Shown here piece after piece: positions 2,294-28,907 of a stretch of DNA of 64,000 bases. Position 1 is the first letter of the stretch. Each line of letters opens with the position of its first letter. This stretch comes from Paenibacillus sp. SZ31 (lineage in GTDB: Bacteria > Bacillota > Bacilli > Paenibacillales > Paenibacillaceae): the NCBI RefSeq assembly GCF_012912005.1, contig NZ_JABBEA010000006.1:1-64000 (forward strand). The letters run 5' to 3'. The position numbers were made by a program, and so were the translations under genes. Below the pieces are notes generated by a model. It was given only the letters and a program-made list of their open reading frames with translations, ran no database searches and was not told where the DNA came from.

Positions 2294-2301
2294 TGTGTGC
2301 T

Positions 2302-3980: not shown

Positions 3981-4045
3981 AAGAAAAAGGATTCTAGTAA
4001 CTCTTGGAATTCTTGGTTGTAGCCCTACTCTTTCAAATAATACAG

Positions 4046-4079
4046 AAGTAGGTAACCATTCGCTGGTTACCTACTTTTT
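4046..4079 (+). terminator. Terminator of the cyclase gene
   Basis: AAGTAGGTAACCA (4046-4058) and TGGTTACCTACTT (4064-4076) pair perfectly around a five-base loop, followed by a T run. It separates the cyclase gene from the convergent tniQ. Confidence 0.85.
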
Positions 4080-4128
4080 CGTTCTTGGTAGACTAATAGC
4101 TAGATTAGCACGAGGTAATCAATTCATG

Positions 4129-5838: not shown

Positions 5839-5887
5839 TATAAGGACTCCTTTGCACTTGGAGTGGATAACTTTGATTTGGTATACG

Positions 5888-9632: not shown

Positions 9633-9644
9633 CTTCCGTCCTCC

Positions 9645-11396: not shown

Positions 11397-11416
11397 TTCA
11401 GTTCCCCCAACCTTAA

Positions 11417-12406: not shown

Positions 12407-12448
12407 AGTTGTATTCTCCTTATAATCATATGCTAATCTCATTTTAGG

Positions 12449-12491
12449 ATATTTAACTCCTAATTACAATTGGAATTAAGTAGTTAAATAT
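12449..12491. promoter_or_regulatory. Large palindromic operator between tns operon and XRE gene
   Basis: ATATTTAACT (12449-12458) and AGTTAAATAT (12482-12491) form outer arms. Nested on the same axis is AATTACAATTGGAATT (12462-12477). This is a plausible binding site for the divergent XRE regulator, which could silence both its own gene and the transposition operon. Confidence 0.6.
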
Positions 12492-12540
12492 TCTTCATTC
12501 CAGGTCATATCTTACCTACTCTTATATAGAGGTGGCATGA

Positions 12541-12885
12541 ATGTCCAATATATATTTAAGAGTCGGAAAAAGAATCCGCTTATACCGAAAAGCGAGAAAG
12601 CTAACTCAAGAAGAATTAGGAGAACAACTTCGAATAGATCAGTCTTACTTAGGGAGAATTGAACGCGGGGAAGTCAATATTACGATAGAGACTCTGGATA
12701 AAATTGCAATTTCACTCGGTATTGTACCGTCTCAATTACTTGAGGATGAGAAGCGAGATGCGATGAATAAATCTAAAACAGATCTGTTGGAGAAGATCGA
12801 TACCACCTTATTATCTTTATCCAGTAAAGAACTTGAAGTGGTTCATCGTTTAATTAAAGATGCCCTCCTATTGAAAGAAATGTAA
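12541..12885 (+). CDS. XRE-family transcriptional regulator
   Basis: The 114-residue protein has a classic N-terminal helix-turn-helix (residues ~8-62, GKRIRLYRKARKLTQEELGE then LGRIERGEVNITIETLDKIA). A short C-terminal helical tail may dimerise. GAGGTGG precedes the ATG. Divergent placement next to the tns operon and the palindrome at 12449-12491 suggests it represses transposition, as small XRE proteins do in many mobile elements. A strong terminator follows directly. Confidence 0.88.
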   Translation: MSNIYLRVGKRIRLYRKARKLTQEELGEQLRIDQSYLGRIERGEVNITIETLDKIAISLGIVPSQLLEDEKRDAMNKSKTDLLEKIDTTLLSLSSKELEVVHRLIKDALLLKEM

Positions 12886-12900
12886 TACGTCCTACATTAA

Positions 12901-12950
12901 AAAAAGCACTTTTGGAATTTGTACGATACAACATTCCAAAAGTGCTTTTT
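12901..12950 (+). terminator. Bidirectional terminator after the XRE gene
   Basis: An 18-base perfect stem (12901-12918 with 12933-12950) with GCACTTTTGGAAT arms ends in T5. The A run on the other side lets it also terminate the minus-strand OLD transcript. Confidence 0.9.
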
Positions 12951-12962
12951 GTTTTATGGACG

Positions 12963-13142
12963 TTAAAGATTATCCGATAAATCCAGTACTCTTTTACATA
13001 CATCACATCTGACTTGCGTCACCAGCCCAAGGCTAGTGGGGATAAAAATATACTCAAATTTAGCACCCGTTGCATCCATTGCAACACATGAATCCCATGC
13101 TCTGATGAAATTCATCATTTCGTCCGTAATTTCAAAATTCAC
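12963..13142 (-). CDS. Small 59-residue protein with CxxC, downstream of the OLD nuclease
   Basis: A GTG at 13142, with AAGGAAGGTG upstream, opens a 59-codon frame that ends just inside the terminator at 12901-12950. The product contains FIPTSLGLV and then CDVC near the C terminus; the lone CxxC pair could bind metal if the protein dimerises. It begins 46 bases after the OLD-family stop codon and is probably co-transcribed. The ribosome site, operon fit and terminator support it as a gene. I do not recognise the family; it could be an accessory or immunity partner of the nuclease. Confidence 0.6.
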   Translation of the reverse strand: MNFEITDEMMNFIRAWDSCVAMDATGAKFEYIFIPTSLGLVTQVRCDVCKRVLDLSDNL

Positions 13143-13188
13143 TAGACACCTTCCTTCTTACTACGCTATATTACAAAGTTTTCCGTTT

Positions 13189-14913: not shown

Positions 14914-14980
14914 CCAAGGAAGCCCCCTACCACTCGAAATAAAAAATGAGTTAATGATTCGCTTATACTTACTCCACAAC

Positions 14981-15013
14981 AGGTATAGCTCTCCATATAA
15001 GAGGGCTATACCT
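14981..15013 (-). promoter_or_regulatory. Hairpin ahead of the OLD-family gene
   Basis: AGGTATAGCTCT and AGGGCTATACCT pair over 12 bases with one wobble. The hairpin lies 67 bases before the chosen OLD start and could be an operator or an attenuator. The rest of the 329-base gap to 15243 shows no gene. Confidence 0.4.
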
Positions 15014-15242
15014 GATTACTGGGTAACATTAGTTGATTCTATCTGATTTATCGACTTCTATTCATAATTTGTGTAGGCGTATAACTCAAATGCAAAGTTG
15101 TACTTCCTTTTCTCCTTTTAATTTATTTATTTCTTACTATTAGCCATCCATAGACCACAATACCGAGAACATATCTCATTTCATCTTATATTAAATGAAT
15201 CAAAGGAGCACTCCGATAAAATCTTTATAGAGGAGTGATTTA

Positions 15243-15959
15243 ATGAATAGACATTCTGTATCTGATCAAAAATTAAAACATCAGATCTACAAAATTTGTT
15301 TCGAGGAACTAACTCTACAAAATAAACTTTTTAATCAGCGCGCCCGTAGATTTGAGGTAGTATTTGTATTATCATTTTCGTTACTCATGGTACAACTGCT
15401 ACTTTACATTGTTCTATTGTTAGTATGGGATTACTCACCTAGTTACTTTTACGGAATCTTCTTACTATGCCTAGGTACAATTACTCTTTTATCTCACTTA
15501 GTCACAATTCAATCTTCACGAAAATACATTCGGACAGAATATAAGGAACTATCGTACCTCATTGGAAAATCAAAATTTACATATGATAAAGAAATTCTTT
15601 TTGCTTTACGGTGTGATGAAGTTTATTACTTTTTGAGAAACAATAGATTTAACCACACTAACATTGATAGTCTAATCCAATATTACTCACATAAAGGAGA
15701 CTCTATAAGGAAACAACGCTGGCTTCCTATTGCCATTTTTGCAACATTTATATTGCCTTTTTGGAATGCTAGTGTAACTAAAAATCTTGTTTGGACTGAA
15801 ATAGATAAAGTTGTCCCATTGGCCTTATTCGCTATTTTCCTCCCAACTGCTGTTTGGGTATGGAGAAAAAATATTGAAATGATCTTTCTATCCAAATCTA
15901 ATAACTACAATGAACTTACAATTATTCTGCGCACTGTTAAGTCATTTCCAAAGTTTTAG
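15243..15959 (+). CDS. Uncharacterised four-TM membrane protein
   Basis: The 238-residue product has two adjacent membrane segments near the N terminus (~40-62 and ~69-90), a soluble middle of about 70 residues, and two more near the C terminus (~158-175 and ~186-206). A charged tail follows. I do not recognise a named family. The paired N-terminal segments followed by a cytosolic stretch recall membrane effectors such as SLATT proteins, but no diagnostic motif was seen. It stands alone between the OLD and PLD-like genes, so it may be defence cargo. It is very AT-rich, like its neighbours. Confidence 0.7.
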   Translation: MNRHSVSDQKLKHQIYKICFEELTLQNKLFNQRARRFEVVFVLSFSLLMVQLLLYIVLLLVWDYSPSYFYGIFLLCLGTITLLSHLVTIQSSRKYIRTEYKELSYLIGKSKFTYDKEILFALRCDEVYYFLRNNRFNHTNIDSLIQYYSHKGDSIRKQRWLPIAIFATFILPFWNASVTKNLVWTEIDKVVPLALFAIFLPTAVWVWRKNIEMIFLSKSNNYNELTIILRTVKSFPKF

Positions 15960-16063
15960 TATCGGTTCTAGTGGTATCTAGTTGTCTTCAATATATGGAA
16001 CTAGTACGATCATCTTCAGGTTCAGCTAAGATTTTTGGTAGAACTTTAGAATTGATATCAAAA

Positions 16064-16097
16064 AAGGAGCAATCTACTAAACCACAGAATGCTCCTT
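16064..16097 (-). terminator. Terminator of the PLD-like gene
   Basis: AAGGAGCA and TGCTCCTT pair; on the minus strand the hairpin is followed by a run of six T. A second small hairpin, CTAACG/CGTTAG at 16104-16120, lies between it and the stop codon and has TTTT on the plus side. Confidence 0.6.
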
Positions 16098-16142
16098 GCT
16101 AAGCTAACGTTTCACGTTAGTTTTAAAGATAGATATTGAAAT

Positions 16143-16883
16143 TTAATTTCCTACATACAACCGCATAAATTCATCAGCAAATTTCTTTACAAAGTCTCTG
16201 TCAAGTGCAGTTGCTAAGGTTTCGTCGTTTTCTCTTGCATTTTTACTCCAATTATATGAACCATGCATCACAAACTCAAAATCAATTATACAAAACTTGT
16301 CATGAAGTCTATTTGACAAATATTTGCCCTTTAACGGAATCTTCTTCACTTCAAAATTACTTTCTAATTCGTGCATTATGTGTTTGTTGGTAGCTTCATC
16401 TGATGTGATTATTCTTATATTAACCCCAGCGTTTTTTCTTAGTAATAACTCTTCAAATATCTCATTATCAGTAAACCATGCTACTGCAATCCATATCGAA
16501 TATTTTGCATTTCTAATACCTTGAATTATTGTCTCTTTTATCTCATCAAAAAATACATCATGTTCTGTTGTTTCATCTTCCTCTAGATCAACAGGTTTTG
16601 GTTTTATATTTAATCCGTAAAAGTCATATTCGGCCGTTTCTATATATACTAAAGCTGCTATTGTTTCTAATTGGCTCTTGTAAGTTCGTGCTACCTTTAA
16701 TAAAGGCACGGGTACTCTTAAATCAACATACTCTTTATATTGATAAGATTTGCGGGTAAAGTCACTTGTTTTAAGGTAAGTGATCATAGAATTTCTTAAT
16801 ATCCCAAGTAACTCATCTTTATTCTTATAATCATCATACTTAACCGTTTCAAACATAGTTTTCAAGAACTGTTTCTCGTCCAC
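16143..16883 (-). CDS. PLD-superfamily protein (HKD nuclease-like)
   Basis: The 246-residue protein has one HKD motif, LHDKFCIIDFEFVMHGSYN (H-K-D near 205-212), typical of PLDc_2 proteins that act as dimeric nucleases or phosphodiesterases. The segment starting SIWIAVAWFTDNEIF is the usual strand-helix before it. The N-terminal ~90 residues are unlike known domains. Similar single-HKD proteins occur as orphan nucleases in defence islands. It has its own terminator and no operon partner. The fold is well supported; the substrate is unknown. Confidence 0.75.
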   Translation of the reverse strand: MDEKQFLKTMFETVKYDDYKNKDELLGILRNSMITYLKTSDFTRKSYQYKEYVDLRVPVPLLKVARTYKSQLETIAALVYIETAEYDFYGLNIKPKPVDLEEDETTEHDVFFDEIKETIIQGIRNAKYSIWIAVAWFTDNEIFEELLLRKNAGVNIRIITSDEATNKHIMHELESNFEVKKIPLKGKYLSNRLHDKFCIIDFEFVMHGSYNWSKNARENDETLATALDRDFVKKFADEFMRLYVGN

Positions 16884-16971
16884 TTTATCCCCCCATTTTC
16901 TTCTATCCAGCCATAATTATTTCATTTTAACACAGATAATTAAACATAACTGCCCGTTAGTTGAAGAAAAA

Positions 16972-16994
16972 CAGCCGGTCAATTTGATCGGCTG
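16972..16994 (-). terminator. Terminator of the arsenic operon
   Basis: CAGCCGGTC (16972-16980) and GATCGGCTG (16986-16994) pair with one wobble. The minus strand continues with TTTTTCTT. It lies about 60 bases after the phosphatase stop codon. Confidence 0.75.
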
Positions 16995-17052
16995 CTTTCT
17001 TGATTGTATTGAGCAAACGTTTCTCGTTAGCGTAACTATTAAAAGCCTTGTT

Positions 17053-17490
17053 TCAGAATATTTTATTTAATATTTCCTTTTGCAGCGGCTTAATATTAAT
17101 GATACTTCTAATGCCTTTTGCCTTCAGTTCAGCATCCTCTATTGTATTGGCTAACCCTAGCTCCAACAGAGTGCCAGCTGCAACAGTTCCCGTTCTGCCC
17201 TTGCCTCCACCACAATGAAAGGCGACCTTCTTGCCGACATTATATGCTCCAACAACCTCATGAATGGCTTGTTTAAAAAGCTCGGCTTCATGTTCTTTCG
17301 TATCGTCATCAAGCGGCACCTTTACCCACATCACATGATCTGCTGGATACGCGCATTCTGTTGCTTCTTCCCGAAGATCCACCACGACTTCAATACCTTC
17401 GTTCAGAACCATTGCCTTTACGTCAGCAGCTCCGCCCATAAAAACTTTATCAGCAATAAGTGCATGGTATTTCTTTTCGGCGTGGTCCAT
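17053..17490 (-). CDS. Protein-tyrosine-phosphatase-like protein of the ars operon
   Basis: The 145-residue protein has the CX5R loop HCGGGKGRTG (C93, R99) of cysteine phosphatases and a preceding general-acid region (VKVPLDDDT). It begins one base after the arsC stop codon and is the last gene of the operon. Low-molecular-weight phosphatases and ArsC share chemistry, but this is a dual-specificity-type fold, separate from the adjacent ArsC. A role in arsenate handling or in dephosphorylating a regulator is inferred only from position. Confidence 0.75.
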   Translation of the reverse strand: MDHAEKKYHALIADKVFMGGAADVKAMVLNEGIEVVVDLREEATECAYPADHVMWVKVPLDDDTKEHEAELFKQAIHEVVGAYNVGKKVAFHCGGGKGRTGTVAAGTLLELGLANTIEDAELKAKGIRSIINIKPLQKEILNKIF

Positions 17491-17491
17491 T

Positions 17492-17917
17492 TTACTTACC
17501 TTCTTTCAAGAACTGCTCGATACGAGCTTTAATTGAATCGCGGACCTCAGCGAATGTAGCTGTGATTTCTTCCTCTGTACCTGTCGCCTTGGCTGGATCA
17601 TCGAAGCCCCAGTGCCATCTTTCAGCTTTGTCATTACGTACAACTGGACAATTATCGTTGGCATGACCACAAAGTGTGATGATGTAGTCTGCTTGTTTTA
17701 AAATCTCAGGATCAATCACATCGGATGTATGACCCGAAATATCGATTCCAGCTTCTTTCATCGTTTGAACAGCACGAGGATTTAAGCCATGTGCCTCTAA
17801 TCCTGCACTTCTCACCTCATATTTATCACTACCAAGTGCCTTTAAAAATCCATCGGCGATTTGGCTTCTGCAAGAGTTTCCTGTACACAAAAAGTAAACA
17901 AGTGGTTTGTTGTTCAT
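17492..17917 (-). CDS. arsC: Thioredoxin-coupled arsenate reductase
   Basis: The 141-residue protein has the P-loop [11 protein letters not shown] (C11, C16, R17) and the redox pair C83 and C90 in [10 protein letters not shown]. This is the three-cysteine relay of the pI258-type enzyme. It reduces As(V) to As(III), which the neighbouring ArsB exports. It is two bases after arsB and one base before the phosphatase gene. Confidence 0.95.
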
Positions 17918-17919
17918 GA

Positions 17920-19356
17920 TTATTGATCTCCTTTATCTTTGGTTTGGCTTACTTGCACTTTCGCTTCGCCCATTTTAGAGTTAATTAACGTTTTTACGAC
18001 CGTAGCGATAACAACCAATGCTACTGTGATTATGCCAATCATTAACCAAACGTTTATGTTTGTTGAATGAATCAAGTGTAGCCACAAATACAGTCCTGTT
18101 AACGTGATAAAGAGCGTTGGGATGGTGAGCACAATCCCGATTTTGAAATAACTACCCCACGTGATTTTTACATCCTTACGGGACAGTACATGTAGCCACA
18201 AAAGTGTTGCGAGAGATCCGATCGGTGTGATTTTTGGACCCAAGTCACTGCCGATAATATTGGCATAAATCAGCGATTCCCGGATGACACCTTGCGTACT
18301 CGTTCCATCAATGGCAAGTGCATCAATCATCACTGTCGGCATATTGTTCATAACCGAAGACAATATTGCAGCTAGAAAGCCCATACCAAGTGTGGAGATG
18401 TAGAGCCCCTGGTCGGCGATGGCTTGAATGACTTTCCCTAGTTCATCCGTCAATCCCACATTTCGCAGTCCATAAACGACGACGTACATACCGATAGAGA
18501 AAATTACTACTGCCCATGGAGCCCCTTTAATGAGCTTCCACGTTTGAATAGCGTGACTCCGTCGTGCAGCTAATATAAACAAGATTGCAATAACCCCAGC
18601 GATAACAGACACGGGAACTTGAATGAACTCGCTCATCAAGTATGCAACCAGTAATACGGCTAAAATCACCCAAGATATTTTGAACAGTTTCTTGTCCTTA
18701 ATCACTTCAGCGGGCTTTTTGAGCTGACTGACTTCGTAGTTCCTTGGAATACTCTTTCTAAAAAACAAGAACAAGACCAGAAGACTCGCTAATATTGAAA
18801 AGAAATTCGGAACAATCATACGACTTGCGTACTCCACAAAACCAATACCGAAGTAATCCGCAGAAACGATATTGACGAGGTTACTCACGACGAGTGGGAG
18901 CGAAGTTGTATCTGCAATGAAACCACTCGCGATAATAAAAGGTAAAATCATCTTTTGATCAAATTTGAGCGCTCGGACCATAGCAAGCACAATGGGCGTT
19001 AAGATCAGTGCGGCACCGTCATTTGCAAAGAACGCTGCAACCGCTGCTCCAAGCAGCACAACATAAACGAACATCAGCTTGCCATTACCTCTTGCGAGCC
19101 TTGCCATGTGCAGTGCAGCCCATTCAAAAAATCCGATTTCATCTAAGATTAGCGAAATTAAGATAATAGCTACGAAAGCAAGCGTGGCGTTCCATACGAT
19201 TCCTGTGACCGTACCTACATCGGATAGACTCACAACTCCAAAAAGAAGAGCAAGGACAGCTCCAGCTGACGCTGACCATCCAATATTAAGCCCCTTAGGT
19301 TGCCAGATCACAAAAGTCAGTGTAAGTAAAAAGATTAAAATCGCGATAATGGTCAT
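17920..19356 (-). CDS. arsB: Arsenite efflux permease ArsB
   Basis: The 478-residue protein is almost entirely hydrophobic, with about 12 membrane segments. It has ArsB/NhaD-family stretches such as [15 protein letters not shown] and [16 protein letters not shown]. ArsB exports As(III) and Sb(III) using the proton-motive force. Its ATG overlaps the arsR stop codon (ATGA). No arsA ATPase gene is present, so it works as a secondary transporter here. Confidence 0.95.
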
Positions 19357-19682
19357 GCTTCCTCCTGAGGACCGCAGCAGTTGTTCAATCCTGCTATTTT
19401 ATCTTTCATGGATGGCAGATACGGATACACACACTGAACATATGCTTCTGCATCTGGATTAAGAGAGTAGTACACCCACTGCCCTCTTTTCTTTTCATTT
19501 AGTAGACCGGCTGCCTTTAGTTTTCGAAGATGCTGACTGGCGTTTGGTTGTGACATGCCAATAATGTCTGTGATATCACATACACAGAGTTCCTGTTCCT
19601 GAAGTAGCGCAATGATGGTCAAACGTGTTTTATCAGCTAATAACTTATACGCCTCAGCCATCTCCTGAATGTTTTGTTCCAT
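19353..19682 (-). CDS. arsR: ArsR-family arsenic-responsive repressor
   Basis: The 109-residue winged-helix protein contains the [16 protein letters not shown] segment: the CVC pair is the classic As(III)/Sb(III)-binding site on the recognition helix. A further CC (NNCCGPQ) lies near the C terminus. The ATG at 19682 follows a perfect AGGAGGTG; the upstream extension to 19745 would cover the promoter. It should repress the arsRBC-phosphatase operon until arsenite binds. Confidence 0.95.
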
Positions 19683-19728
19683 ATGTACACCTCCTGTGAT
19701 ATTCTCGTTGGTTTCATTTAGTAATATA

Positions 19729-19757
19729 ATTATATAATAAACCACTTATATAATCAA
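19729..19757 (-). promoter_or_regulatory. arsR operon promoter
   Basis: On the minus strand a -35 TTGATT (19752-19757) and a -10 TATAAT (19729-19734) are spaced by 17 bases. A 12-base palindrome ATATAATTATAT at 19724-19735 covers the -10 and could be the ArsR operator. Confidence 0.7.
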
Positions 19758-19787
19758 TCACGAATATATTAGGTTTACCACACCAAA

Positions 19788-19815
19788 AAAGTCGGCAATA
19801 ATGATTACCGACTTT
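19788..19815 (-). terminator. Terminator of the small gene upstream of arsR
   Basis: AAAGTCGG and CCGACTTT pair, and the minus strand continues with T. It overlaps the stop codon of the 64-residue gene and insulates the arsR promoter. Confidence 0.7.
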
Positions 19816-20008
19816 ACTCTCGAACTAAAAATTCACATTTTGACTTAATAAAATAATGACTGTCTTTCATCTTAACTATATCTCTCGTTTGATACTCAAT
19901 GACTCCACCTTGATCTAATAATTCATCATGCTGATATACCTTTACGTGCCATTTTTTTAAGATTGCATCATTAAGTTGTGCTGCGGTATACAACAGTGTG
20001 CCCTTCAT
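19814..20008 (-). CDS. Small uncharacterised protein in the arsenic island
   Basis: This 64-residue protein (MKGTLLYTAAQLNDAILKK...) is charged and soluble, with one Cys. The ATG at 20008 has GAGGTG 6 bases upstream; the GTG three codons earlier lies inside that site. Its own dyad-containing promoter region and terminator support a real gene. I do not recognise the family, and no link to arsenic is visible in the sequence. Confidence 0.65.
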   Translation of the reverse strand: MKGTLLYTAAQLNDAILKKWHVKVYQHDELLDQGGVIEYQTRDIVKMKDSHYFIKSKCEFLVRE

Positions 20009-20025
20009 TATAGTCACCTCGAGAA

Positions 20026-20046
20026 GTTATAATCATCAATTATAAC
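20026..20046. promoter_or_regulatory. Dyad upstream of the 64-residue gene
   Basis: GTTATAAT and ATTATAAC flank a five-base centre. Each arm contains a -10-like TATAAT, so this may be an operator overlapping the promoter. Confidence 0.4.
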
Positions 20047-20067
20047 ATCCTCCTGAAATTCGATAGC

Positions 20068-21105
20068 TCACAATATTTTCACAAGCGATTGTACAGCTTT
20101 TTTCGCGTCATTCCCAGAACCTCGAATCGTCGCAGACGCAAATGAGGTCTGCCACGGTATACCTACGAAATGGATACTTTCATCGCTTTGTTTTACAGGT
20201 ACACCTGATGAATCAAGAACGTTCAATCCACTAAGATATTCGAAATTCGGAATATAACCTGTGGCAAAAATAACGGTATCCACATTTTCACGAGTCTCAT
20301 CTGCCCACACTAACCCATTTTCCGTAAAAGCTTTAAACATCAGTTTGGCATCTGGCTTACCTTGATCGATTGCATTTTTATATGTACCGGTATCAAGGAC
20401 ACCGTCACTACTTTTCTGCAATAATCGTTTGCCCCAATTGGATTGATCAAGCCTGAGTATAGTTAGCCAAAAGTGAATATCTTTCCCTGCAATGACCTGC
20501 GGCTTGAATTTGATCGGGCTTCTGGATGCAATCGTTACATGCGCCGTCTTAGCCAGTTCAACCGCTATTTGTACCGCCGAATTACCTCCTCCCACAACAA
20601 TGATCCGTTTGTTTTTAAACTCTTTCTCATTTCGGTAGTCCTTGGCATGAAGTATTTCTCCCTTAAATTCATGCATGCCAGGAATGTTTGGAATATGAGG
20701 ATTTACGAATGCCCCGCTTGCACTAATGATGGACCGTGTACGAAACTGTTCTCCGCTTGAGGTATGGACTGTATAGATATTACTTTCCTTATCCACTTTA
20801 ATTACTTCTTGCCCTGTGTGTATTGGAAAATTGTATGTAGCCGCATAAGACTTTAAGTATTGAACAACCTCATCTCTACGCGGATAAACATTTGCTCCAC
20901 CTGGAAATGGGAGTCCTGGCAATGAAGAATACGGTGCAGGCGAGAACAACGTTAAGCTATCATAGTAATTTGCCCATGATCCTAAATGCTCTTCACTTTT
21001 TTCAAGGATGATAAAGTTCCGTTTAGCTTCTTGTAAGTAATAGGCTGCTGCCAAACCGGATTGACCACCACCAATAACGATGCAATCATAAATCATATTT
21101 TTCAA
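20068..21105 (-). CDS. arsO: ArsO-like flavin-dependent monooxygenase
   Basis: The 345-residue protein has an FAD-binding GGGQSGLAAAYYLQ motif at residues ~12-25 and an NADPH-binding VVGGGNSAVQIA near 170. An FATGYIPN near 280 also fits flavin monooxygenases. Length and spacing match ArsO proteins, found in ars operons, whose exact reaction is debated. Its start follows a GGAGG-type site. It lies downstream of the Cys-tailed flavoprotein gene with a hairpin between, so read-through may set its level. Confidence 0.8.
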   Translation of the reverse strand: MKNMIYDCIVIGGGQSGLAAAYYLQEAKRNFIILEKSEEHLGSWANYYDSLTLFSPAPYSSLPGLPFPGGANVYPRRDEVVQYLKSYAATYNFPIHTGQEVIKVDKESNIYTVHTSSGEQFRTRSIISASGAFVNPHIPNIPGMHEFKGEILHAKDYRNEKEFKNKRIIVVGGGNSAVQIAVELAKTAHVTIASRSPIKFKPQVIAGKDIHFWLTILRLDQSNWGKRLLQKSSDGVLDTGTYKNAIDQGKPDAKLMFKAFTENGLVWADETRENVDTVIFATGYIPNFEYLSGLNVLDSSGVPVKQSDESIHFVGIPWQTSFASATIRGSGNDAKKAVQSLVKIL

Positions 21106-21127
21106 TTTTCTCCCTCCTTCTATAAAA

Positions 21128-21159
21128 AGCTACTGCATCACGATTCGGATGCAATAGCT
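21128..21159 (-). terminator. Hairpin between the two flavoprotein genes
   Basis: AGCTACTGCATC and GATGCAATAGCT pair with one mismatch, and the minus strand continues with TTTTTAT. It can terminate or attenuate transcription before arsO. Confidence 0.65.
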
Positions 21160-21172
21160 CTGAATTCTTGAT

Positions 21173-22585
21173 TTATCCGCAGCAAGAATCTGATCCTGCC
21201 TTTTCCGTTTTTGAAGTAGAGCAGCAATTTGTAGTGGCTTCCTCTACCTGAACTGGTTCACAGCAGCTGTCCGTGCTACTAGCACCTAAACTGCAAACAC
21301 CTGTCTCCGGCAGTTCCAGTTCTACTTTTTGAGCTGACTCCATATCTCCCACCAAAGCCGCTACAATGGATCTGACTTGCTCATATCCCGTTGCCATGAG
21401 GAAAGTTGGCGCTCTTCCATAACTTTTGGCACCTACGATATAAAAGCCCTTTTCTGGTTGACGGAGTTCTTTTTCGCCATGTGGTCGAACTGTTCCGCAG
21501 CTGTGGATATTGGGGTCAATTAATGGCGCAAGCTCATAAACACATTCTAAGCCTGGGTCCGTCAATACTCGTACTTCTCTCAACATCGATAAGTCAGGAC
21601 GAGAACCTGTGTTACCTACAATTTCATCGATGTGATCAATAACCACTTGTTCATCTATGATGGTTCCGGAAACCTGAATCTGTTCACCTTGTTTTTGAAG
21701 TTTTTCAATATGAAATGCTGTCAGGACCTTTACGGCACTGGATTCAACCACCTTTTGGATACGAGTACCCAGTTCACCTCTTGCCTGAAGCCCATCTAGT
21801 TCTCGTCCGCCATAAACATCCTCGATATTTGCTTTGCGAACAACCCACACAATCTCAGTTCTTGATTCTTCTTTTTGAAGCTCTACAAGTTCAAGCAACG
21901 TGTTAATCGCAGAATGTCCACTTCCTACAACAAGCACCTTCTTGCCGCTATATCGATTTCTCTCTTTTCCTAATACAGCAGGAATACCGTATGAAATATG
22001 GCTATTAAGCGCTTTTTCCTCTTCTGAAAATATACCGTCTGAACGAAGAGGGTTCGGATTGGACCATGTCCCCGTCGCATCGATAACAGCCCGCGCTTCA
22101 TAAATAAACGAAGATCCGTTTTGTTCAACATGAATCACAAACGGGAGTTTCTCACGCCCATTTGTTTTTACTTTACTTAACCCTTTACGACTGATCGCAG
22201 TAACTTTCGTATTCAAATGTATATGTGGACTTAATTCAGGCAGCTCAGCCAAAGGTTTTAGATAATACTCGACAATCTCCTTACCCGTTGGGATCGTTTC
22301 GGTTTGTGGAGCGACCCAATTGGCCGATAGCAGCAACTCTTTAGCAGCTTTATCGATGTTATACTGCCATGGTGAGAACAGTCGTACATGTTCCCATTTT
22401 CGAATGTTTGTCCCTACTTCATCTCCAGCTTCAAACAACATAAACGGCTCACCTTTTGAAATGAGTTGTGCTGCTGCCGCAAGACCAACCGGTCCAGCTC
22501 CAATGATCGCGACAGGTAATTTGCCCTTCTCTTGTACTGGTGCTTCGCAGCAGCTCACTTGGTTCACAGGGATATGTTTAATCAT
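21173..22585 (-). CDS. FAD/NAD(P)-dependent oxidoreductase with a Cys-rich tail
   Basis: The 470-residue flavoprotein has a dinucleotide motif IIGAGPVGLAAAAQL near residue 30 and a second one VLVVGSGHSAINTL near 215. Vicinal cysteines stand out: SCCEAP near residue 10, then DSCCEP, NCCSTS and DSCCG in the last 35 residues. Such pairs bind As(III) tightly, so the tail may dock or sense arsenite. The ATG at 22585 has GAGGAGG upstream; the frame is open to 22621, across a putative MarR operator. The reaction is unknown. Context points to arsenical oxidation or reduction. Confidence 0.8.
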   Translation of the reverse strand: MIKHIPVNQVSCCEAPVQEKGKLPVAIIGAGPVGLAAAAQLISKGEPFMLFEAGDEVGTNIRKWEHVRLFSPWQYNIDKAAKELLLSANWVAPQTETIPTGKEIVEYYLKPLAELPELSPHIHLNTKVTAISRKGLSKVKTNGREKLPFVIHVEQNGSSFIYEARAVIDATGTWSNPNPLRSDGIFSEEEKALNSHISYGIPAVLGKERNRYSGKKVLVVGSGHSAINTLLELVELQKEESRTEIVWVVRKANIEDVYGGRELDGLQARGELGTRIQKVVESSAVKVLTAFHIEKLQKQGEQIQVSGTIIDEQVVIDHIDEIVGNTGSRPDLSMLREVRVLTDPGLECVYELAPLIDPNIHSCGTVRPHGEKELRQPEKGFYIVGAKSYGRAPTFLMATGYEQVRSIVAALVGDMESAQKVELELPETGVCSLGASSTDSCCEPVQVEEATTNCCSTSKTEKAGSDSCCG

Positions 22586-22608
22586 CTTAGTTTCCTCCTC
22601 ATAATTAG

Positions 22609-22621
22609 TTGCATTTTGCAA
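22609..22621. promoter_or_regulatory. Putative MarR operator upstream of the flavoprotein gene
   Basis: TTGCATTTTGCAA is a perfect 5-3-5 dyad. It matches the core of the larger palindrome upstream of the marR-like gene, suggesting control by the same regulator. Confidence 0.55.
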
Positions 22622-22649
22622 GTATTATATTAAATAAATGGGATAAGTA

Positions 22650-23099
22650 TTATCCCAGTGGTGTACAGCATACGCTGGATTTCGCCATACTTTCGTTTAG
22701 CAGTTTGACGGCGTTGATGACCATATCCCGTTCAAACTCAGACATATGAGAAAAGACTTCTTTTAAATAATCATTCATTTGCTCATCAATGACCGTAGCA
22801 ACAAACTTCCCTTGTGTAGTCAAGGATAATATGTAAATCCGTCGATCTTCAGGTAGAGGCGTTTTTTGAACCAAACCCAACTTTACAAGACTTTGAACCT
22901 GCCGGCTAAACGTCGTGATGTCAATGGAGAGTGCATCTGCCACTTGTTGAATGGATGGATTATGTTTACGATCAATTTCATAAACGATATGACTTTGAAT
23001 AAGTGAAATATCCAAACCTCCTGCGGTGCAACAGTTTTTATCCAACAATCCAAAACGCCGTGTCATGATCTGAAACATCTCTCTTACGTTGTTTTCCAA
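22650..23099 (-). CDS. MarR-family regulator with cysteine pairs
   Basis: The 149-residue protein has a MarR winged helix (ADALSIDITTFSRQVQSLVK and the wing PLPEDRRIYILSLT). A CC pair lies near the N terminus (DKNCCTAGG) and another near the C terminus (SSVCCTPLG). In a dimer these could form an As(III)-binding or thiol-redox site, an unusual feature for MarR. It sits between the flavoprotein and arsN1 genes, and matching TTGCA-N3-TGCAA dyads occur on both sides of it. It probably represses both neighbours and itself. Confidence 0.85.
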   Translation of the reverse strand: MENNVREMFQIMTRRFGLLDKNCCTAGGLDISLIQSHIVYEIDRKHNPSIQQVADALSIDITTFSRQVQSLVKLGLVQKTPLPEDRRIYILSLTTQGKFVATVIDEQMNDYLKEVFSHMSEFERDMVINAVKLLNESMAKSSVCCTPLG

Positions 23100-23133
23100 T
23101 TACCTCACCTCTTGTTATAGTTATACCCTGATT

Positions 23134-23150
23134 ATTTGCAATATGCAAAT
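23134..23150. promoter_or_regulatory. Putative MarR operator between marR and arsN1
   Basis: ATTTGCAATATGCAAAT is a perfect 17-base palindrome with a three-base centre. It lies in the divergent promoter region of the marR-like and arsN1 genes. Confidence 0.65.
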
Positions 23151-23240
23151 GTTTTTTTATTATTTTTCTTCCCCACTTCACATTTCAAGTTACATTGTGA
23201 TATATAAAAAAATACAAAACAAAACGTAGGAGTGATGTTG

Positions 23241-23729
23241 ATGCTTTTAGTGCGACAAGCTACAGTTGCTGATCTCAGCGACATTTTAACGATTTATAAC
23301 CAAGGTATTGAAGACCGTATTGCCACGCTTGAAACAGATATAAAAGATGAAGCTTACATGTCTGAATGGTTTAACAAGCACAAAGGACGTTACTCGATAC
23401 TTATAGCCGAACAGAATGATCTAGTGGTTGGATGGGCTTCTATCAATACGTATAGCCCAAGAAGCGCGTATGACGGTGTCGGTGACCTCTCCATTTATAT
23501 TCATCGTGATCATCGTGGCAAAGGGGTTGGAAAACAATTACTTCAGAAATTAGAGCAAATCGGTAAGCAGAATAACTTTTATAAGTTTGTTCTTTTCACC
23601 TTTCCATTTAATACGCTAGGTCAGAGCTTATATCATAAAGCTGGATATCGAGAAGTAGGTGTATTTCAGAATCAAGGCGTTTTAGAAGGGAAATTTGTAG
23701 ATGTGATGGCAATGGAGAAAATTTTATAA
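23241..23729 (+). CDS. arsN1: ArsN1-like GNAT N-acetyltransferase
   Basis: The 162-residue protein has the GNAT acetyl-CoA loop RDHRGKGVGKQLL and the phosphinothricin-acetyltransferase-like pattern IYNQGIEDRIATLET, SPRSAYDGVGDLSIY and AGYREVGVFQNQG. This matches ArsN1, which acetylates the arsenic-containing antibiotic arsinothricin. The ATG at 23241 lies 8 bases after AGGAG. It diverges from marR across a palindromic operator. A glufosinate acetyltransferase is the main alternative, but the ars context favours ArsN1. Confidence 0.8.
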   Translation: MLLVRQATVADLSDILTIYNQGIEDRIATLETDIKDEAYMSEWFNKHKGRYSILIAEQNDLVVGWASINTYSPRSAYDGVGDLSIYIHRDHRGKGVGKQLLQKLEQIGKQNNFYKFVLFTFPFNTLGQSLYHKAGYREVGVFQNQGVLEGKFVDVMAMEKIL

Positions 23730-23833
23730 GTATTGATATGTAGCAAGTATGGTTTAATGTCTAATCGGTAATCTCTCAATTGAAATTCTATAACATAAAT
23801 CCAGAGAATTGCTGACAAGTTCTACAACGAAAA

Positions 23834-23854
23834 AAGCCGCTATACTAGCGACTT
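23834..23854 (-). terminator. Terminator of the parA-like operon
   Basis: AAGCCGCTA and TAGCGACTT pair with one wobble around a three-base loop; the minus strand continues with T. It lies about 80 bases after the 235-residue gene. Confidence 0.6.
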
Positions 23855-23931
23855 CGTTTGGATAAAATTTCAATCTTCACTTTTGACATTACTCTATTAT
23901 CTACAGACTAATTAGCGAAACTAGAACGAGG

Positions 23932-24639
23932 TTATGCCATCTCTTTAATTATAGCCAAATTTTCTGGATCTAAATTTCTCTCTAAACGAATAATAGAGGC
24001 AAAGGTAAGTTCTTGAAAATTAAAGTTTATTGCTTCACAAAGAAGCTCTATAAATAATTTAAATATAGCATTCACATCTTTGACAAAGTGGCTCATTTTT
24101 TCAAAATAATTGCTAACATAGTAATCTAGAGTACCTAAAGCATTAAAATTGTTCGTTAAATGAGCATGAATTTCTTTTGAATATGTTCCATACAAAGAAA
24201 ACAGTTGTGAAAGTTTAGGCAGTTTAGTACTTTCTTTTATTTTGTATGCCTCTTTCAATTCATCTTTTAAATTTCTAAAAGCAGTCCGAGCTATAGTACT
24301 CTGATCTTTATCAGGATATGCTAATGAATAAAGCATCTTTAACAGAGTCTCTACTGCCGAACGAATGAGATATCCTACAAATCCAACGTGATTGACTGGT
24401 AAAGCAACAAGAATCGAATTTATATATTCTTTAAAATCACTTAAAAATTGTTTGTTACATTGGCATGCATGCTCTTCAATCCAACTTTGAAAAACTTCAA
24501 TCAGAATCAAATTATCATAGGCTAGCGAATGCAGTTTATCTATTGTCTTAAGCCTTCCTTGTTTCGATGTCCATACATTTGAAGGGAAGTGTGTATCAAT
24601 AAATTCTTTATAGCGAGTAAGTTCATTTTGCTTAGACAT
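23932..24639 (-). CDS. Uncharacterised helical protein, third gene of the ParA module
   Basis: The 235-residue product appears all-helical and soluble. A segment VGYLIRSAVETLLKMLYSLAY followed later by SKEIHAHL gives an R...H arrangement that loosely recalls HEPN-type proteins, but the spacing is not the standard RX4-6H motif. No family is assigned. It follows the 135-residue gene by three bases, so the two are translated together with ParA. The operon may be a partition, defence or transposon-maintenance module. Confidence 0.6.
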   Translation of the reverse strand: MSKQNELTRYKEFIDTHFPSNVWTSKQGRLKTIDKLHSLAYDNLILIEVFQSWIEEHACQCNKQFLSDFKEYINSILVALPVNHVGFVGYLIRSAVETLLKMLYSLAYPDKDQSTIARTAFRNLKDELKEAYKIKESTKLPKLSQLFSLYGTYSKEIHAHLTNNFNALGTLDYYVSNYFEKMSHFVKDVNAIFKLFIELLCEAINFNFQELTFASIIRLERNLDPENLAIIKEMA

Positions 24640-24642
24640 TAA

Positions 24643-25050
24643 CTATTTACCTCGACTGTATTTATTCACAATATCATTTACATAATCGTCAGAAGAATTT
24701 GATCGCTTGGTACTCTCAAGCTCGTAGTTATCATCATTAATATCACCGTGTTTATACAGAAAGTCCATGGTTCTAGACTGCAATACCATAAGATTTTTCA
24801 AATCCATTTTTTGCAATTTTCTAATCGTCATGGCTATTAACGAAGTTCGATTAGAATAAAGATATTCTCTATGTGCTATGCTAATGAACTCAAAAAATTC
24901 AGGTAAATCTTTGTTACTTTTAAATAACTCAGTTGAGAGAATAATTTCAGATAAATAGCCATACAGATTTACTCTCAAAGTGTTCTCATTTTGTATTTTT
25001 TTAACTTCCTTAAACTTGTTGATTAAATTTTTCTTGTCCATTAGCAGCAT
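24643..25050 (-). CDS. Uncharacterised 135-residue protein overlapping parA
   Basis: The frame overlaps the end of the parA-like gene by 41 bases, with GGGAGG four bases before its first ATG. A second ATG three codons on has longer spacing. The product is Lys-rich and helical, with a polar tail (STKRSNSSDDY). No known motif was found. It could be an adaptor of the ParA-like ATPase, in the place where parB often lies, but it has no recognisable ParB or helix-turn-helix domain. Confidence 0.6.
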   Translation of the reverse strand: MLLMDKKNLINKFKEVKKIQNENTLRVNLYGYLSEIILSTELFKSNKDLPEFFEFISIAHREYLYSNRTSLIAMTIRKLQKMDLKNLMVLQSRTMDFLYKHGDINDDNYELESTKRSNSSDDYVNDIVNKYSRGK

Positions 25051-25867
25051 CTATCCTCCCTTCGAACTCTTCACAAATGTTTTGTACAGTCTGCAATAAA
25101 AGAGCATCATTTCTATCAGTTACAAAAGTATCCATTCGGCTTGTTGCGATTTTCGGCATGTACTTAAATTCTTGTTTAAATCTATATAAACCTTTCTTCC
25201 TTGCAAAAGTATCTATACTACTGATTATTTTACTGACGCCACCATCAAGGTCCACCTTCGTTAAAACTACCCCTAGACACAAGAGAGTTCTAGATTTCAT
25301 TAAAGCAGCCTGATCATCATTTTTAAAGTTTTCTACTACATTATTCAGTAAATCAAGTCCCAAAATAGAGTACAAATCTGGTTGAGCTGGGGCTAGATAA
25401 AAATCGGAAGCTAATAATGCTGAAACTGTATAAAATGAGTATGTAGGAGGACAGTCTATAAATATATAATCAAACTCTCTTTTTAGCTCCCACTGATCAA
25501 TTAAAGTAAGGAGTCTTTGCTCATTCTTACTGTTTACTTCTCTTTCCATAAAAACTGTAGAAAGATCACCTGGAATTATACTTAGGTTTTCTGTCAATTT
25601 CAAAATAACATTTTGCCTTTGAATATTTACTAATTTTGACTCATACATATTTTGAATTGTTGGCATGCCCTCAAGTTTAACTCCCTCATCATTTACTGTA
25701 TCTACAGAAAACTTTTCAAAAAGCGACTGAGTACAATTTGATTGAGGATCTACATCAACCACCAAAACTTTTTTACCGCTATTCTGTAAATAATAAGCTA
25801 TTTCTCTACAAAGTGTTGTTTTACCTACTCCACCTTTCATATTTAAAAAAGAAATAACGTGCCCCAT
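25010..25867 (-). CDS. ParA/Soj-family ATPase
   Basis: The 285-residue protein has the deviant Walker A motif NMKGGVGKTTLC, Walker A' VVDVDPQSNCT and Walker B FIDCPPTYS of ParA/MinD ATPases. The ATG at 25867 has AAGGAGG upstream and gives the standard N terminus. ParA proteins pattern DNA or protein cargo on the nucleoid or membrane. No parB gene or clear parS repeats are nearby; two unknown genes follow. Its role in a transposon is unclear: partition remnant, targeting factor or defence component. Confidence 0.85.
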   Translation of the reverse strand: MGHVISFLNMKGGVGKTTLCREIAYYLQNSGKKVLVVDVDPQSNCTQSLFEKFSVDTVNDEGVKLEGMPTIQNMYESKLVNIQRQNVILKLTENLSIIPGDLSTVFMEREVNSKNEQRLLTLIDQWELKREFDYIFIDCPPTYSFYTVSALLASDFYLAPAQPDLYSILGLDLLNNVVENFKNDDQAALMKSRTLLCLGVVLTKVDLDGGVSKIISSIDTFARKKGLYRFKQEFKYMPKIATSRMDTFVTDRNDALLLQTVQNICEEFEGRIDAANGQEKFNQQV

Positions 25868-26648
25868 ATATACCCCTCCTTGATAAAATATCAACTAGTT
25901 TGTTTGTTGTTAAATCAAATATACCTGTAATACAAGGGACTAATCAACCAATTTACTATAATATTTCCTCTCTCGCTTTTTTAAATTTTCTTCAGTTAAT
26001 ACATTAGTCAACTGAACACAGTAAAAGGCCAGGATTTTCATTCTGACCATAGTTATTTTTATTGTTTTCACTTACTTTTTCACTTTAAGTAACATTAAAC
26101 ATACTAACATTGGAATTCAATCGATCACAAATTGATCATCACAGTGCCCTGCTAAATTAATTATATAGAGGAGAATTACACATAAAGTAACTTTACTACT
26201 TCAATTTACCTAGTGCTTCCGATTATCTAAAGCTTGAAGGTAGCAAAACGGATCATCCGCTTAAGAGGAATTACATCAAAAAAATCCCAAAATTTTTCGA
26301 ACTCTTTGCACAGAATAGAAGTTTTATGTGAGCTAATGCGATATTGAGAATGAGAAGGTACTCTTCTTGAAAATGAAGAGCATCTTCTCCTATAAAATCA
26401 ATTATAAACTTGACCACAGCTTCACTCATTCTCAAATTTATAAAAACTACATAATACTATAAAGACAATTTAGTTCTGGATTCATGGTTGCTTTAATGAG
26501 AAAACTTGATTTATCAAGGAGAAACGACAATTTAAATTAAAGTTACCGACAAAACACCATCAAGTTAACGACATTTTAATTTAAAGTTAACATCGGGAGA
26601 TGAATGACAATGAATAAATATTCAGTTCCCATCGATTATGAAAAAGTT
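25868..26648. other. Non-coding region between parA and the right end
   Basis: No credible gene was found in these 780 AT-rich bases. A two-part hairpin lies at 26352-26389 (GAGAAG/CTTCTC and CTCTTC/GAAGAG arms). A pair of direct repeats at 26523-26594 is listed separately. The parA promoter probably lies near 25880-25960. The size and structure leave room for an unannotated RNA. Confidence 0.4.
26523..26594. repeat. Two 28-base direct repeats near the right end
   Basis: The copies are 26523-26550 and 26567-26594; they begin AACGACA, share TTAAAGTTA, and start 44 bases apart. They are unlike the TnsB-type repeats at the termini. Their form recalls ends of other Tn7/Tn5053-type elements, so they may be a remnant of another end or extra protein sites. 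Confidence 0.5.
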
Positions 26649-26686
26649 GTCTCATCAATTCTGAAAATAGTCCCACTAATTATGAC
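26649..26686 (-). repeat. Right-end TnsB-type repeats (two copies)
   Basis: The copies are 26649-26665 and 26670-26686, closely packed, in inverted orientation relative to the left-end set. Compact spacing resembles the Tn7 right end, which also lies next to its target gene. Confidence 0.75.
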
Positions 26687-26713
26687 GACGCACATTTTTT
26701 TTGAGTTCCTATC

Positions 26714-28009
26714 TTAGATCTTATAAGCCTTCATGGCCTTAAATAACTCTTTAAAGGTTGGACGTTTACCGTACATCAACACACCTGTGCGATAAATTTT
26801 CGCTGCAAGCCATCCGAAGATGACAATGGATACGACGAGAATCGCTAAGGATGTTAGAATCTCCCAAGTTGGTGCAACTCCTGCGCCAATCCGTACCAGA
26901 ATCGCGGTCGGCGACGTAAACGGAATGAAACTTGCGATTTTCAACAACAGAATGTTTGGCGTAGCAATACTGAAGATCGCAATATAGAAGGAAACGAGCG
27001 ACAGCATCGTGATCGGCAGAACAGCCTGACCGAGTTCTTCAGTACGACTTACCATTGAACCAATGGCAGCAAACAACACGGCATACAGGAAGTAACCCAG
27101 AATGTAGAATATGAGTCCGTACACAATAACTGCAATATTCACATCACTTACATTCATATTGAAGTCACCTAATACTGCACGGTTATGCGGCAGCAAGATA
27201 TTTCCGGCAACCACTGCTCCGAAGATCCCAATTTGCAGCATCCCCACCATGAAAATACCGATGATTTTACCAAACATCTGACTGAGCGGTGATACACTCG
27301 TAATCAGAATCTCCATAATACGTGAGCTCTTCTCAGCTGTGATCTCGGAGGCAATCATGTTGCCTGTCATCATCGTCGAGGTGAACAGCAGGATGATCAG
27401 CAAGTACACCACAATATAGTTAATCGGGCTCATTGCACCTTCAGAATCAGTACCAGCTCCGCTCTCATCTGTACTCAAGCTTTGCTCGGTGAGTTTCACA
27501 GGTGTTGTAATCAGTTCCTTCTGCTCCGCTGTGAGTACATCCTTCACAACCACATCCAACTTCACACTCTGCAACGCAGCTTCAATAGATGCGATAATCT
27601 GAGGTGATACGTCTTCTGCTGAATAGAGAATCGGCTGCGGGAACTCTTGCCCGGCAACGGCTTCAAACTTCAGATAACCATCGGTAAGCCCTGCTTCCAC
27701 ATCTGCCGCAAGAGCAGCCTCATCTTTGTCACCACTGGTGATGAATCGATAGGCCTGATCTCCTTGAGCCGCAGAGAAGCTCTCCAGTTTCTCGGAAACT
27801 TCAAGCTGCCCCGTACTTAAAAGACCAATATTTACAGGATTACTGCTTGAAGCTCCGCCAATGGGACCCCCGTTGAATAAGGTAATGAAATATGGAACAT
27901 TGAGTCCTATAGAAATTAAAAGTGCAAGTACAATGGTCGTCACCATGAATGATTTCGTTTTAACCTTGTTCTTAAAAGTAAATCCCGTAATCGTTCCCAT
28001 TTTATTCAT
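26714..28009 (-). CDS. yhaP: ABC-2-type exporter permease (YhaP/NatB-like)
   Basis: The 431-residue permease has one N-terminal membrane segment, a large extracytoplasmic domain of about 150 residues, and five or six C-terminal segments (STMMTGNMIASEITAEKSSR, the usual ABC-2 turn). This is the NatB/YhaP layout, exporting sodium or a toxic solute. The ATG at 28009 overlaps the yhaQ stop codon and follows AGGTGAG. The conserved C terminus (MYGKRPTFKELFKAMKAY) ends 20 bases from the transposon right end, so its coding 3' end may be the transposon's recognition site. The insertion left the protein intact. Confidence 0.85.
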   Translation of the reverse strand: MNKMGTITGFTFKNKVKTKSFMVTTIVLALLISIGLNVPYFITLFNGGPIGGASSSNPVNIGLLSTGQLEVSEKLESFSAAQGDQAYRFITSGDKDEAALAADVEAGLTDGYLKFEAVAGQEFPQPILYSAEDVSPQIIASIEAALQSVKLDVVVKDVLTAEQKELITTPVKLTEQSLSTDESGAGTDSEGAMSPINYIVVYLLIILLFTSTMMTGNMIASEITAEKSSRIMEILITSVSPLSQMFGKIIGIFMVGMLQIGIFGAVVAGNILLPHNRAVLGDFNMNVSDVNIAVIVYGLIFYILGYFLYAVLFAAIGSMVSRTEELGQAVLPITMLSLVSFYIAIFSIATPNILLLKIASFIPFTSPTAILVRIGAGVAPTWEILTSLAILVVSIVIFGWLAAKIYRTGVLMYGKRPTFKELFKAMKAYKI

Positions 28010-28907
28010 TCGACTCACCTACCTCACGAATAAAGATTTGGTTAAGCGTTGGTTCCTTGATCTCAAAGTGCTCCACTGTCGTCTGTGCCATCGCTGTTCT
28101 GAGAATCTCCTGAGCGGCTTCCACCTGTCCAATATGTATCAGGTATCCACGCTCGTTCCGCTCGACTTTCTTCACACCAGGCAATAGCTCCAATCCATCC
28201 ACATTTCCAAGCGTACTCAGATACACTTGCTCACGCGGATAACGGCTCTTGATCTCTTTGATCTCTCCTTGCACTACGGTATTGGAACTATGCAGAATGG
28301 TGATCTGACGACACAACTCCTCAACGTGTTCCATCCGGTGTGTGGAGAACAGTATCGCTGTTCCTTCATCACGCAATTCCTTAACGGTGGATTTGAGTAT
28401 CTCTACATTGACAGGGTCCAGTCCGCTGAACGCTTCATCCAGAATGAGAATCTGAGGTCTATGAACCACCGCGGCGATAAAGCCCATTTTCTGCTGGTTA
28501 CCTTTGGATAACTCCTCAATCTTCTTGTCGTAATACTCGGGTACCTCAAAACGATCCAACCAGTACTTGAGGCTCTGGTCTGCATCCTTGCCATTCATAC
28601 CACGGAGCCGTGCCAGGTAATTAATCTGTTCGCTGACTTTCACCTTCGGGTACAATCCGCGCTCTTCCGGAAGATAACCCATAATCTGTTGTAGCTCCGT
28701 GTTGTAGGGCTTGCCGTTGTACAGGATATTACCTCCGTCAGGGTGAATCAGTCCGAGCACCATACGCATTGTTGTTGTTTTACCTGCACCATTGGCTCCG
28801 AGCAGTCCGTAAATCTCCCCCTCTTTTACATTGAGCGTGACTCCATTAACGGCTGTTTTGTCTGCATATTGCTTGACGACTTGCTTCAATTCCAATCGGT
28901 TCATCAT
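28002..28907 (-). CDS. yhaQ: ABC transporter ATPase (YhaQ/NatA-like)
   Basis: The 301-residue ATPase has Walker A LLGANGAGKTTTMR, signature LSKGNQQKMGF and Walker B ILILDEAFSGLDP, with a C-terminal domain of about 90 residues, as in YhaQ. It pairs with the overlapping permease gene downstream. GGGAG lies 7 bases before the ATG. The preceding ATPase gene ends 17 bases upstream, so the operon is continuous. Confidence 0.9.
   Translation of the reverse strand: MMNRLELKQVVKQYADKTAVNGVTLNVKEGEIYGLLGANGAGKTTTMRMVLGLIHPDGGNILYNGKPYNTELQQIMGYLPEERGLYPKVKVSEQINYLARLRGMNGKDADQSLKYWLDRFEVPEYYDKKIEELSKGNQQKMGFIAAVVHRPQILILDEAFSGLDPVNVEILKSTVKELRDEGTAILFSTHRMEHVEELCRQITILHSSNTVVQGEIKEIKSRYPREQVYLSTLGNVDGLELLPGVKKVERNERGYLIHIGQVEAAQEILRTAMAQTTVEHFEIKEPTLNQIFIREVGESNE

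Follow-up and report, generated by a model that had tools for sequence, protein, structure and literature searches.

The window, a stretch of 64,000 nucleotides from a Paenibacillus genome (G000, contig C29), harbors a Tn7-like element of 24.4 kb (positions 2294-26694) situated between the genes for an ABC-2 permease and a TraB/PrgY-like protein (Table 1). Pfam searches recognized TniQ, TniB/TnsC, Mu-transposase C-terminal, and TnsA domains within it, and by its content of TnsA, TnsB, and TnsC together with TniQ/TnsD proteins the element is a Tn7-like transposon. The genes for the DndB-like protein, TniQ1, TnsA, TnsB, TnsC, and TniQ2 form a block on the minus strand. Among the 23 element proteins, the Pfam scan recognized neither TnsE nor a Cas domain, so that the element does not group with the CRISPR-associated transposons, and it is also distinct from Tn7 proper because its attachment gene is a PF12698 permease rather than glmS. 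With regard to the cargo, ars genes 72-94% identical to those of the window adjoin a lower-scoring TniQ1 relative at another site in G355 (L189:11303-14491), indicating that cargo is common to different genera.

Table 1. Features of the window around the Tn7-like element and its attachment site
Feature	Position	Strand	Basis
TraB/PrgY-like gene, downstream neighbor of the permease at empty sites	517..1794	-	TraB start within 600 bp in 29/59 flanks
Second candidate copy of the 5-bp duplication, homopolymeric	2289..2293	.	sequence
Left end, A-type, three widely spaced repeats	2294..2440	+	repeats, pattern matches
Cargo on both sides of the tns block (2575-3980, 13189-25894)	2575..25894	.	domain searches
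Pycsar cargo	2575-3980		PycC cyclase E 6.5e-97, PycTM effector E 3.2e-31
TniQ2, second selector; relatives in elements away from the permease site	4129..5838	-	PF06527
TnsC-like AAA+ ATPase	5888..6931	-	PF05621, PF13401
TnsB-like transposase	6904..8997	-	PF09299
TnsA-like protein	8994..9632	-	PF08722; NF033179 below its cut-off
TniQ1, TnsD-type, proposed selector for the permease site	9645..11396	-	PF06527, relatives at same site, tree, TnsD-like fold
DndB/DGQHR-like protein, conserved neighbor of TniQ1	11417..12442	-	PF14072, TIGR03187; 75-81% in three relatives
HTH regulator paired with the DndB-like gene	12541..12885	+	PF01381; 72-76% in three relatives
OLD-like AAA-TOPRIM cargo	13189-14979		
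PLD-like cargo	16143-16883		
ars (arsenic) operon cargo	17053-19745		
B-type right-end sequence, ~100 bp inside the A-type right end	26499..26592	-	nhmmer 75.9 bits
A-type right end with three transposase-site-like repeats at close spacing	26610..26694	-	repeats, end-model and pattern matches
Spacer between stop codon and element, 19 bp; possible duplication copy at 26695-26699	26695..26713	.	sequence
yhaP-like ABC-2 permease, attachment gene at its 3' end	26714..28018	-	PF12698, E 1.6e-49
Last 36 bp of the permease coding sequence, predicted selector binding site	26717..26752	-	analogy to TnsD at glmS (PMC2918618)

The original prediction had placed the right end of the element about 20 bases after the stop codon of a yhaP-like gene, with the end of compact repeats facing that gene as in Tn7 at glmS, and both statements hold: 19 bp separate the permease stop codon (26714-26716) from the terminal TGT at 26694 (minus strand), and the repeats of the right end (26627, 26650, and 26671) are spaced by 23 and 21 bp, compared with 64 and 52 bp for those of the left end (2286, 2350, and 2402). 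The repeat TGTCATAATTAGTGAGA, with up to 3 mismatches, occurs four times in the window, always within the two ends (shuffle mean 0.22), and a terminal TGT together with transposase-site repeats arrayed asymmetrically at the two ends is a Tn7-like trait. The name yhaP comes from the original prediction; no NCBIfam model scored above its cut-off for the permease, leaving the label without confirmation from a family model. The element is flanked by AAAAA (in the orientation of the gene) at 26695-26699 and 2289-2293, a possible 5-bp duplication that proves little, because both copies lie within runs of eight A. The B-type right-end sequence nested inside the A-type right end shows that another kind of element has left a trace in the window, and given its presence the 24.4-kb unit may be composite.

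The permease is present as one full-length copy in 60/60 genus genomes searched. Its C terminus had been proposed as a stable recognition site for TnsD, and the conservation part of that proposal is borne out: across 37 diverged copies (G032 being counted twice), the last 30 residues show 87% identity against 48% for the rest of the protein, and this segment ranks 20 of 405 for conservation. At third codon positions, conservation is 0.61 in the last 30 codons and 0.60 in the preceding 20; the DNA at the 3' end is therefore not specially conserved, and any protein reading it would have to accommodate wobble, like TnsD at glmS. Judged by these comparisons, the C terminus of the permease is a good address, the recognition of which by a TnsD-type protein is suggested by analogy.

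Across 75 genomes of the genus, TniQ1 matched in 7, its own included. Relatives of nearly full length (37-43% identity) were found in 3 of the 74 other genomes, namely G037, G030, and G045, in all of which the permease lies on the strand of the TniQ1 relative, 12-20 kb from it, and the permease stop codon is followed by an A-type right end at 18, 22, and 22 bp, respectively; a scan of genome contigs with TniQ1 returned only these three loci. The remaining matches were a relative of 26% identity and nearly full length on a contig other than that of the permease (G032), a partial one of 28% at 4.8 Mb from the permease (G035), and short matches only (G054). A model of the A-type right end, built from the window and these three congeners, was scanned against 841,149 bases, drawn from the window and from 93 loci, some of which overlap and many of which had been selected around the permease; the remaining matches above 40 bits lie 18, 19, 21, and 18 bp past the permease stop codon in G063, G019, G028, and G031, and the weaker ones are mostly left ends and remnants.

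A 24-base terminal pattern, searched with 1 mismatch allowed across all 75 genus genomes, gave 38 matches in 25 genomes, and its reversed control none. Twelve of these lie directly behind the permease stop codon (G000, G019, G028, G030, G031, G037, G038, G045, G060, G062, G063, and G067), and 13 more are outer ends of elements at the permease site, adjoin TraB or a fragment of it, or fall within ~27 kb on the downstream side of the permease (G000, G002, G019, G025, G027, G028, G030, G037, G041, G045, G061, G066, and G071); the least sure among the latter are G041 and also G025 and G066, both of which rest on short TraB fragments. The remaining 13 show no link to the permease (G005 twice, G020, G027 contig C2 twice, G031, G032, G040, G045, G057, G059 twice, and G066), and 5 of these fall outside the loci inspected. 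As for unoccupied sites, TraB starts within 600 bp of the permease stop codon in 29 of the 59 genus flanks, meaning that little or nothing is inserted there, and G041 holds a TraB fragment only. G040, which is of the same species as the window, has an empty site with TraB 161 bp after the stop codon.

The 13 unlinked pattern matches would fit the view of the intergenic region as simply a permissive hotspot, with elements landing widely and surviving at a harmless spot without any dedicated selector. We consider this very unlikely in view of the ends themselves, which were scored in 74 flanks from 73 genomes, consisting of the 59 genus flanks (G045 being read apart) and 15 flanks from genomes selected for having a TniQ match. 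A-type ends lie 18-22 bp after the permease stop codon in 8 flanks, to which the pattern search adds a ninth, partial match in G060 with its terminal TGT 18 bp after the stop; C-type ends (TGTGAGTAAC...) lie at 14-20 bp in 10 flanks, and B-type ends (TGTTAACTTT...) at 16-18 bp in 3, the latter occupying the permease site in G004 and G047. The right ends of three sequence types thus all fall 14-22 bp past the permease stop in one orientation, offsets too narrow for survival bias. Moreover, the distance to the permease is kept where an element has inserted into an older one: in both G045 and G028, the element lies 6 nt into a resident C-type end, 9 bases separate two A-type ends in G030, and tandem arrays are present at several permease sites. 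Clean 5-bp duplications of non-homopolymer sequence flank six elements, in G030 (ATGTT), G037 (GGTGT, with 76.7 kb between the ends), G045 (GTGAG), G028 (GTGAG), G230 (TCGGG), and G255 (ATTTA, read across two contigs); G334 resembles the window in having AAAAA in A-runs, and the target duplication of G019 is not clean. Comparison of these sites shows, at the level of sequence, insertion at a fixed 14-22 bp and in one orientation, repeated independently, with 5-bp duplications and the gene left intact.

Several occupied sites carry A-, B-, or C-type ends and no tns genes recognized in the ~18-20 kb examined. For example, G019 (L118:92-5131) has ~5.0 kb between A-type ends with beta-lactamase-family and erythromycin-esterase-family domains and no recognizable tns gene, and G028 (L120:133-19229) has 19.1 kb between such ends with sugar uptake and GH32 genes, again with no recognizable tns gene; these tns-less A-type elements were possibly moved in trans. 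In G004 (L126), a B-type end 16 bp past the permease stop is accompanied by a sugar-PTS island that extends to TraB ~16 kb away; no tns gene was recognized in this island, and the transposase of the B-type ends was not found. Another end-like sequence (TGTGGGTAATAC...) lies ~13-15 bp past the permease stop in G196 and G355 (L166 and L173), where no tns gene was recognized in the stretches examined.

The region beyond the left end bears on what the site looked like before insertion. The original prediction had it that removing the element would join the gene to a terminator at 2217-2244. This is literally correct, although the hairpin is not the ancestral terminator: similarity to congeners begins at 1831, and 1832-2293 matched no empty site among the loci compared. 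For these ~460 bp, which contain the hairpin, the only close match seen is in G002, at 95%, where it adjoins a similar element in decayed form; the hairpin was accordingly rejected as the native terminator of the permease. The empty sites compared lack the 2217-2244 hairpin, and a different hairpin stands between the permease and TraB in 15 of the 29 flanks in which TraB starts within 600 bp. In G230, the outer duplication is followed by a hairpin, which would adjoin the gene if the element were absent. The C-type right ends examined by eye (L167, L171, L172, and L178) show a hairpin followed by a T-run ~95-145 bp past the permease stop, and the C-type element may thereby supply the terminator of the permease.

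The left flank that the window has in common with G002 at 95% indicates that some copies were probably inherited together. That all of them descend from one old insertion, with no repeated targeting, is extremely improbable given the different duplications, the three end types, the tandem insertions, the empty site of G040, and transposases that are down to 22-24% alike.

TniQ1 was sought in 394 genomes of Paenibacillaceae and matched in 31 at E <= 1e-10; 16 of these 31 were searched for the permease, which was found in all 16. In two other genera, TniQ1 and the permease are 6-16 kb apart in G345, G197, and G230. The two are on separate contigs in G255 and G334, where a C-type right end lies 16 and 19 bp, respectively, after the permease stop. 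The left ends of the G345 and G197 elements were not found. Lower-scoring TniQ1 relatives are off-contig or at least 0.5 Mb from the permease in G143, G357, G355, G196, G032, and G035, and the remaining five of the 16 genomes have partial, weaker matches only. A second TniQ1 copy in G255 has a different neighbor, a SpoU-type methylase gene that ends 15-21 bp before it (PF00588, E 2.3e-6, just short of the cut-off with 41 residues available). The survey of related elements downstream of permease homologues therefore finds insertions at the same distance and in the same orientation behind the same gene in several species of three genera, and the proposal of a new attachment site is well supported.

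Within this set, the site follows TniQ1 and not the transposase. On the one hand, the TnsB proteins of C-type elements at the permease are 22-24% like A-type TnsB over the matched parts, and these elements, with a TniQ1 that is 31-35% identical to that of G045 and 28-29% to that of the window, keep the permease site. On the other hand, G285, from another genus, has an A-type right end and TnsA, TnsB, and TnsC that are 57-68% like those of G045 but carries a relative of TniQ2 (36-37%) in the position of TniQ1, and its element is 3.9 Mb from the permease, with the right end between unrelated genes; the permease flank in this genome has a hairpin (by eye) and no end. The 13 unlinked end matches run against the expectation that related elements would keep to one kind of site; the one tns-bearing case of such an end that was examined away from the permease, G285, has a different selector, which agrees with the proposal. 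The selector is most likely TniQ1 (9645-11396) and not TniQ2 (4129-5838), as judged from these sequence relationships. TniQ2 is less likely in this role, as the other genus elements have no close relative of it and its relatives in G285 and G215 sit elsewhere.

In the phylogenetic tree, a branch (96/98) separates all TniQ1 proteins from the second TniQ proteins, the placement of which is unsure because of long branches. The permease-site TniQ1 proteins need 2 changes (32% of bootstrap trees have 1), so that they may have one origin or more than one; the other TniQ1 proteins group at 79/88. Outside Paenibacillaceae, members of the TniQ1 family were found in G742, G745, G657, G585, and G729; four of these five genomes have no permease match, G657 has a partial one (31%) at ~0.36 Mb, and the addresses of the five were not found.

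TniQ1 has an N-terminal TniQ domain (PF06527), and C110, C113, C132, H135, C143, C146, C161, and C164 are invariant in 19 sequences, a pattern from which these residues are predicted to bind zinc. Its profile matches solved TniQ and TnsD chains. The structural model (mean pLDDT 83.3, pTM 0.53) has as its best fold match 8v32_J, from a TnsD-TnsC-DNA complex (Z 20.8, rmsd 10.5 over 379 residues), followed by a CAST I-B TniQ (Z 18.8) and E. coli TnsD(1-318) (8glu, Z 14.5), although the comparison is thin beyond residue ~280; TniQ1 thus models as a TnsD-like fold. TniQ1 also has a long C-terminal extension, which the model renders as mostly helical, and the G030 copy gave a weak HTH match, below the cut-off.

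An alternative is that TniQ1 acts as an adaptor only and that the site is read by TniQ2 or by the DndB-like/HTH pair. This pair accompanies TniQ1 in all four genus elements and is conserved far above the transposition proteins, at 75-81% for the DndB-like protein and 72-76% for the HTH protein compared with 36-42% for TniQ1, and target selection of the adaptor type has a precedent in TnsF with TniQ, as described in PMC10293859. Yet DndB-like homologues (57-79%) occur in nine other stretches without a match to the Tns proteins of the window, and no DndB-like gene was found beside TniQ1 in G345, G197, or G230. The second selectors differ among the four genus elements, TniQ2 having no close relative in the other three, and its relatives in G285 and G215 are off the permease. 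We therefore regard the adaptor reading as unlikely, and the DndB-like/HTH pair perhaps has a role in regulation or defense. A DndB-like gene (74%) also adjoins TniQ1 in G334.

Our results argue that the window contains a Tn7-like transposon that very probably homes to an attachment site at the conserved 3' end of an ABC-2 permease gene, with TniQ1 as the predicted selector. By analogy to Tn7, the C-terminal part of TniQ1 would bind the conserved last codons of the permease gene and recruit TnsC through the TniQ domain; TnsC would then assemble toward the downstream side and bring in end-bound TnsAB, which would join the ends ~20 bp after the permease stop, with strand transfer as in Tn7. The permease gene would be left whole and the site usable again, and because the spacing is measured from the gene, any sequence can be inserted into, even an older element's end, giving rise to tandem arrays. 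TniQ2, or whichever protein replaces it in other elements, probably works in a second pathway.

From a broader point of view, we lean slightly toward the view that the permease 3' end is a hub across the Paenibacillaceae, where a portable TnsD-type selector has been passed between transposase lineages and used in trans by tns-less elements, and where elements stack serially. If so, unrelated islands would be stacked one after another at a single address, and the stacked arrays show cargo for defense and metal resistance accumulating at one place. To our knowledge, Tn7-like elements of Firmicutes have been little studied. The elements described here form a natural control set, with the same selector beside different transposases and related transposases beside a different selector, and so make it possible to test directly whether the address resides in the TnsD protein alone and which residues read it. 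Being single-copy in 60/60 genus genomes and gene-sparing, the site might also be exploited in Paenibacillus genetics as a landing site for tools.

Compared with known systems, the element resembles Tn7 at attTn7 (glmS), with which it shares TnsABC together with a TnsD-type protein and insertion in one orientation, ~20 bp past a conserved stop codon, and six of its relatives also share the 5-bp duplication; a conserved C terminus with wobble divergence tolerated by TnsD is described for glmS in PMC2918618. It differs in its ABC-2 permease target, in having two long TniQ proteins, and in the absence of a recognized TnsE among its 23 proteins scanned with Pfam. Tn6022 is described in PMC10293859 as using a TniQ and TnsF pair at comM. 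The G030 and G045 elements (L060:8856-10651 and L062:6199-8049) likewise have a short TniQ followed by a tyrosine-recombinase-like protein, a module that is absent from the window element, but Tn6022 lies inside comM, whereas the permease elements insert behind their gene. In the CAST types I-B1, I-B2, I-D, and parE-type I-F3, as presented in the review PMC11406308, a DNA-binding TniQ targets a chromosomal site and a second TniQ serves another pathway; the best fold match of TniQ1 is likewise a TnsD-TnsC-DNA complex, 8v32. The window element has no cas gene among its 23 scanned proteins and targets neither glmS nor a tRNA gene nor parE. Table 1 of the same review names few chromosomal addresses for Tn7-like elements and includes Tn6230, a Tn7-like element with an att site at yhiN whose molecular details it lists as unknown, and which, like the permease elements, has its own chromosomal gene as an address, albeit a different gene. 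The literature searched on Tn7-like elements with yhaP or Paenibacillus attachment sites, supplementary tables being outside its scope, does not name the site: within their main texts, Faure et al. do not use the terms "permease," "Paenibacillus," or "ABC transporter," nor Benler et al. "permease," "Paenibacillus," or "transporter." Set against these systems, what we describe is a Tn7-like element with a new address, and not a new kind of machine.
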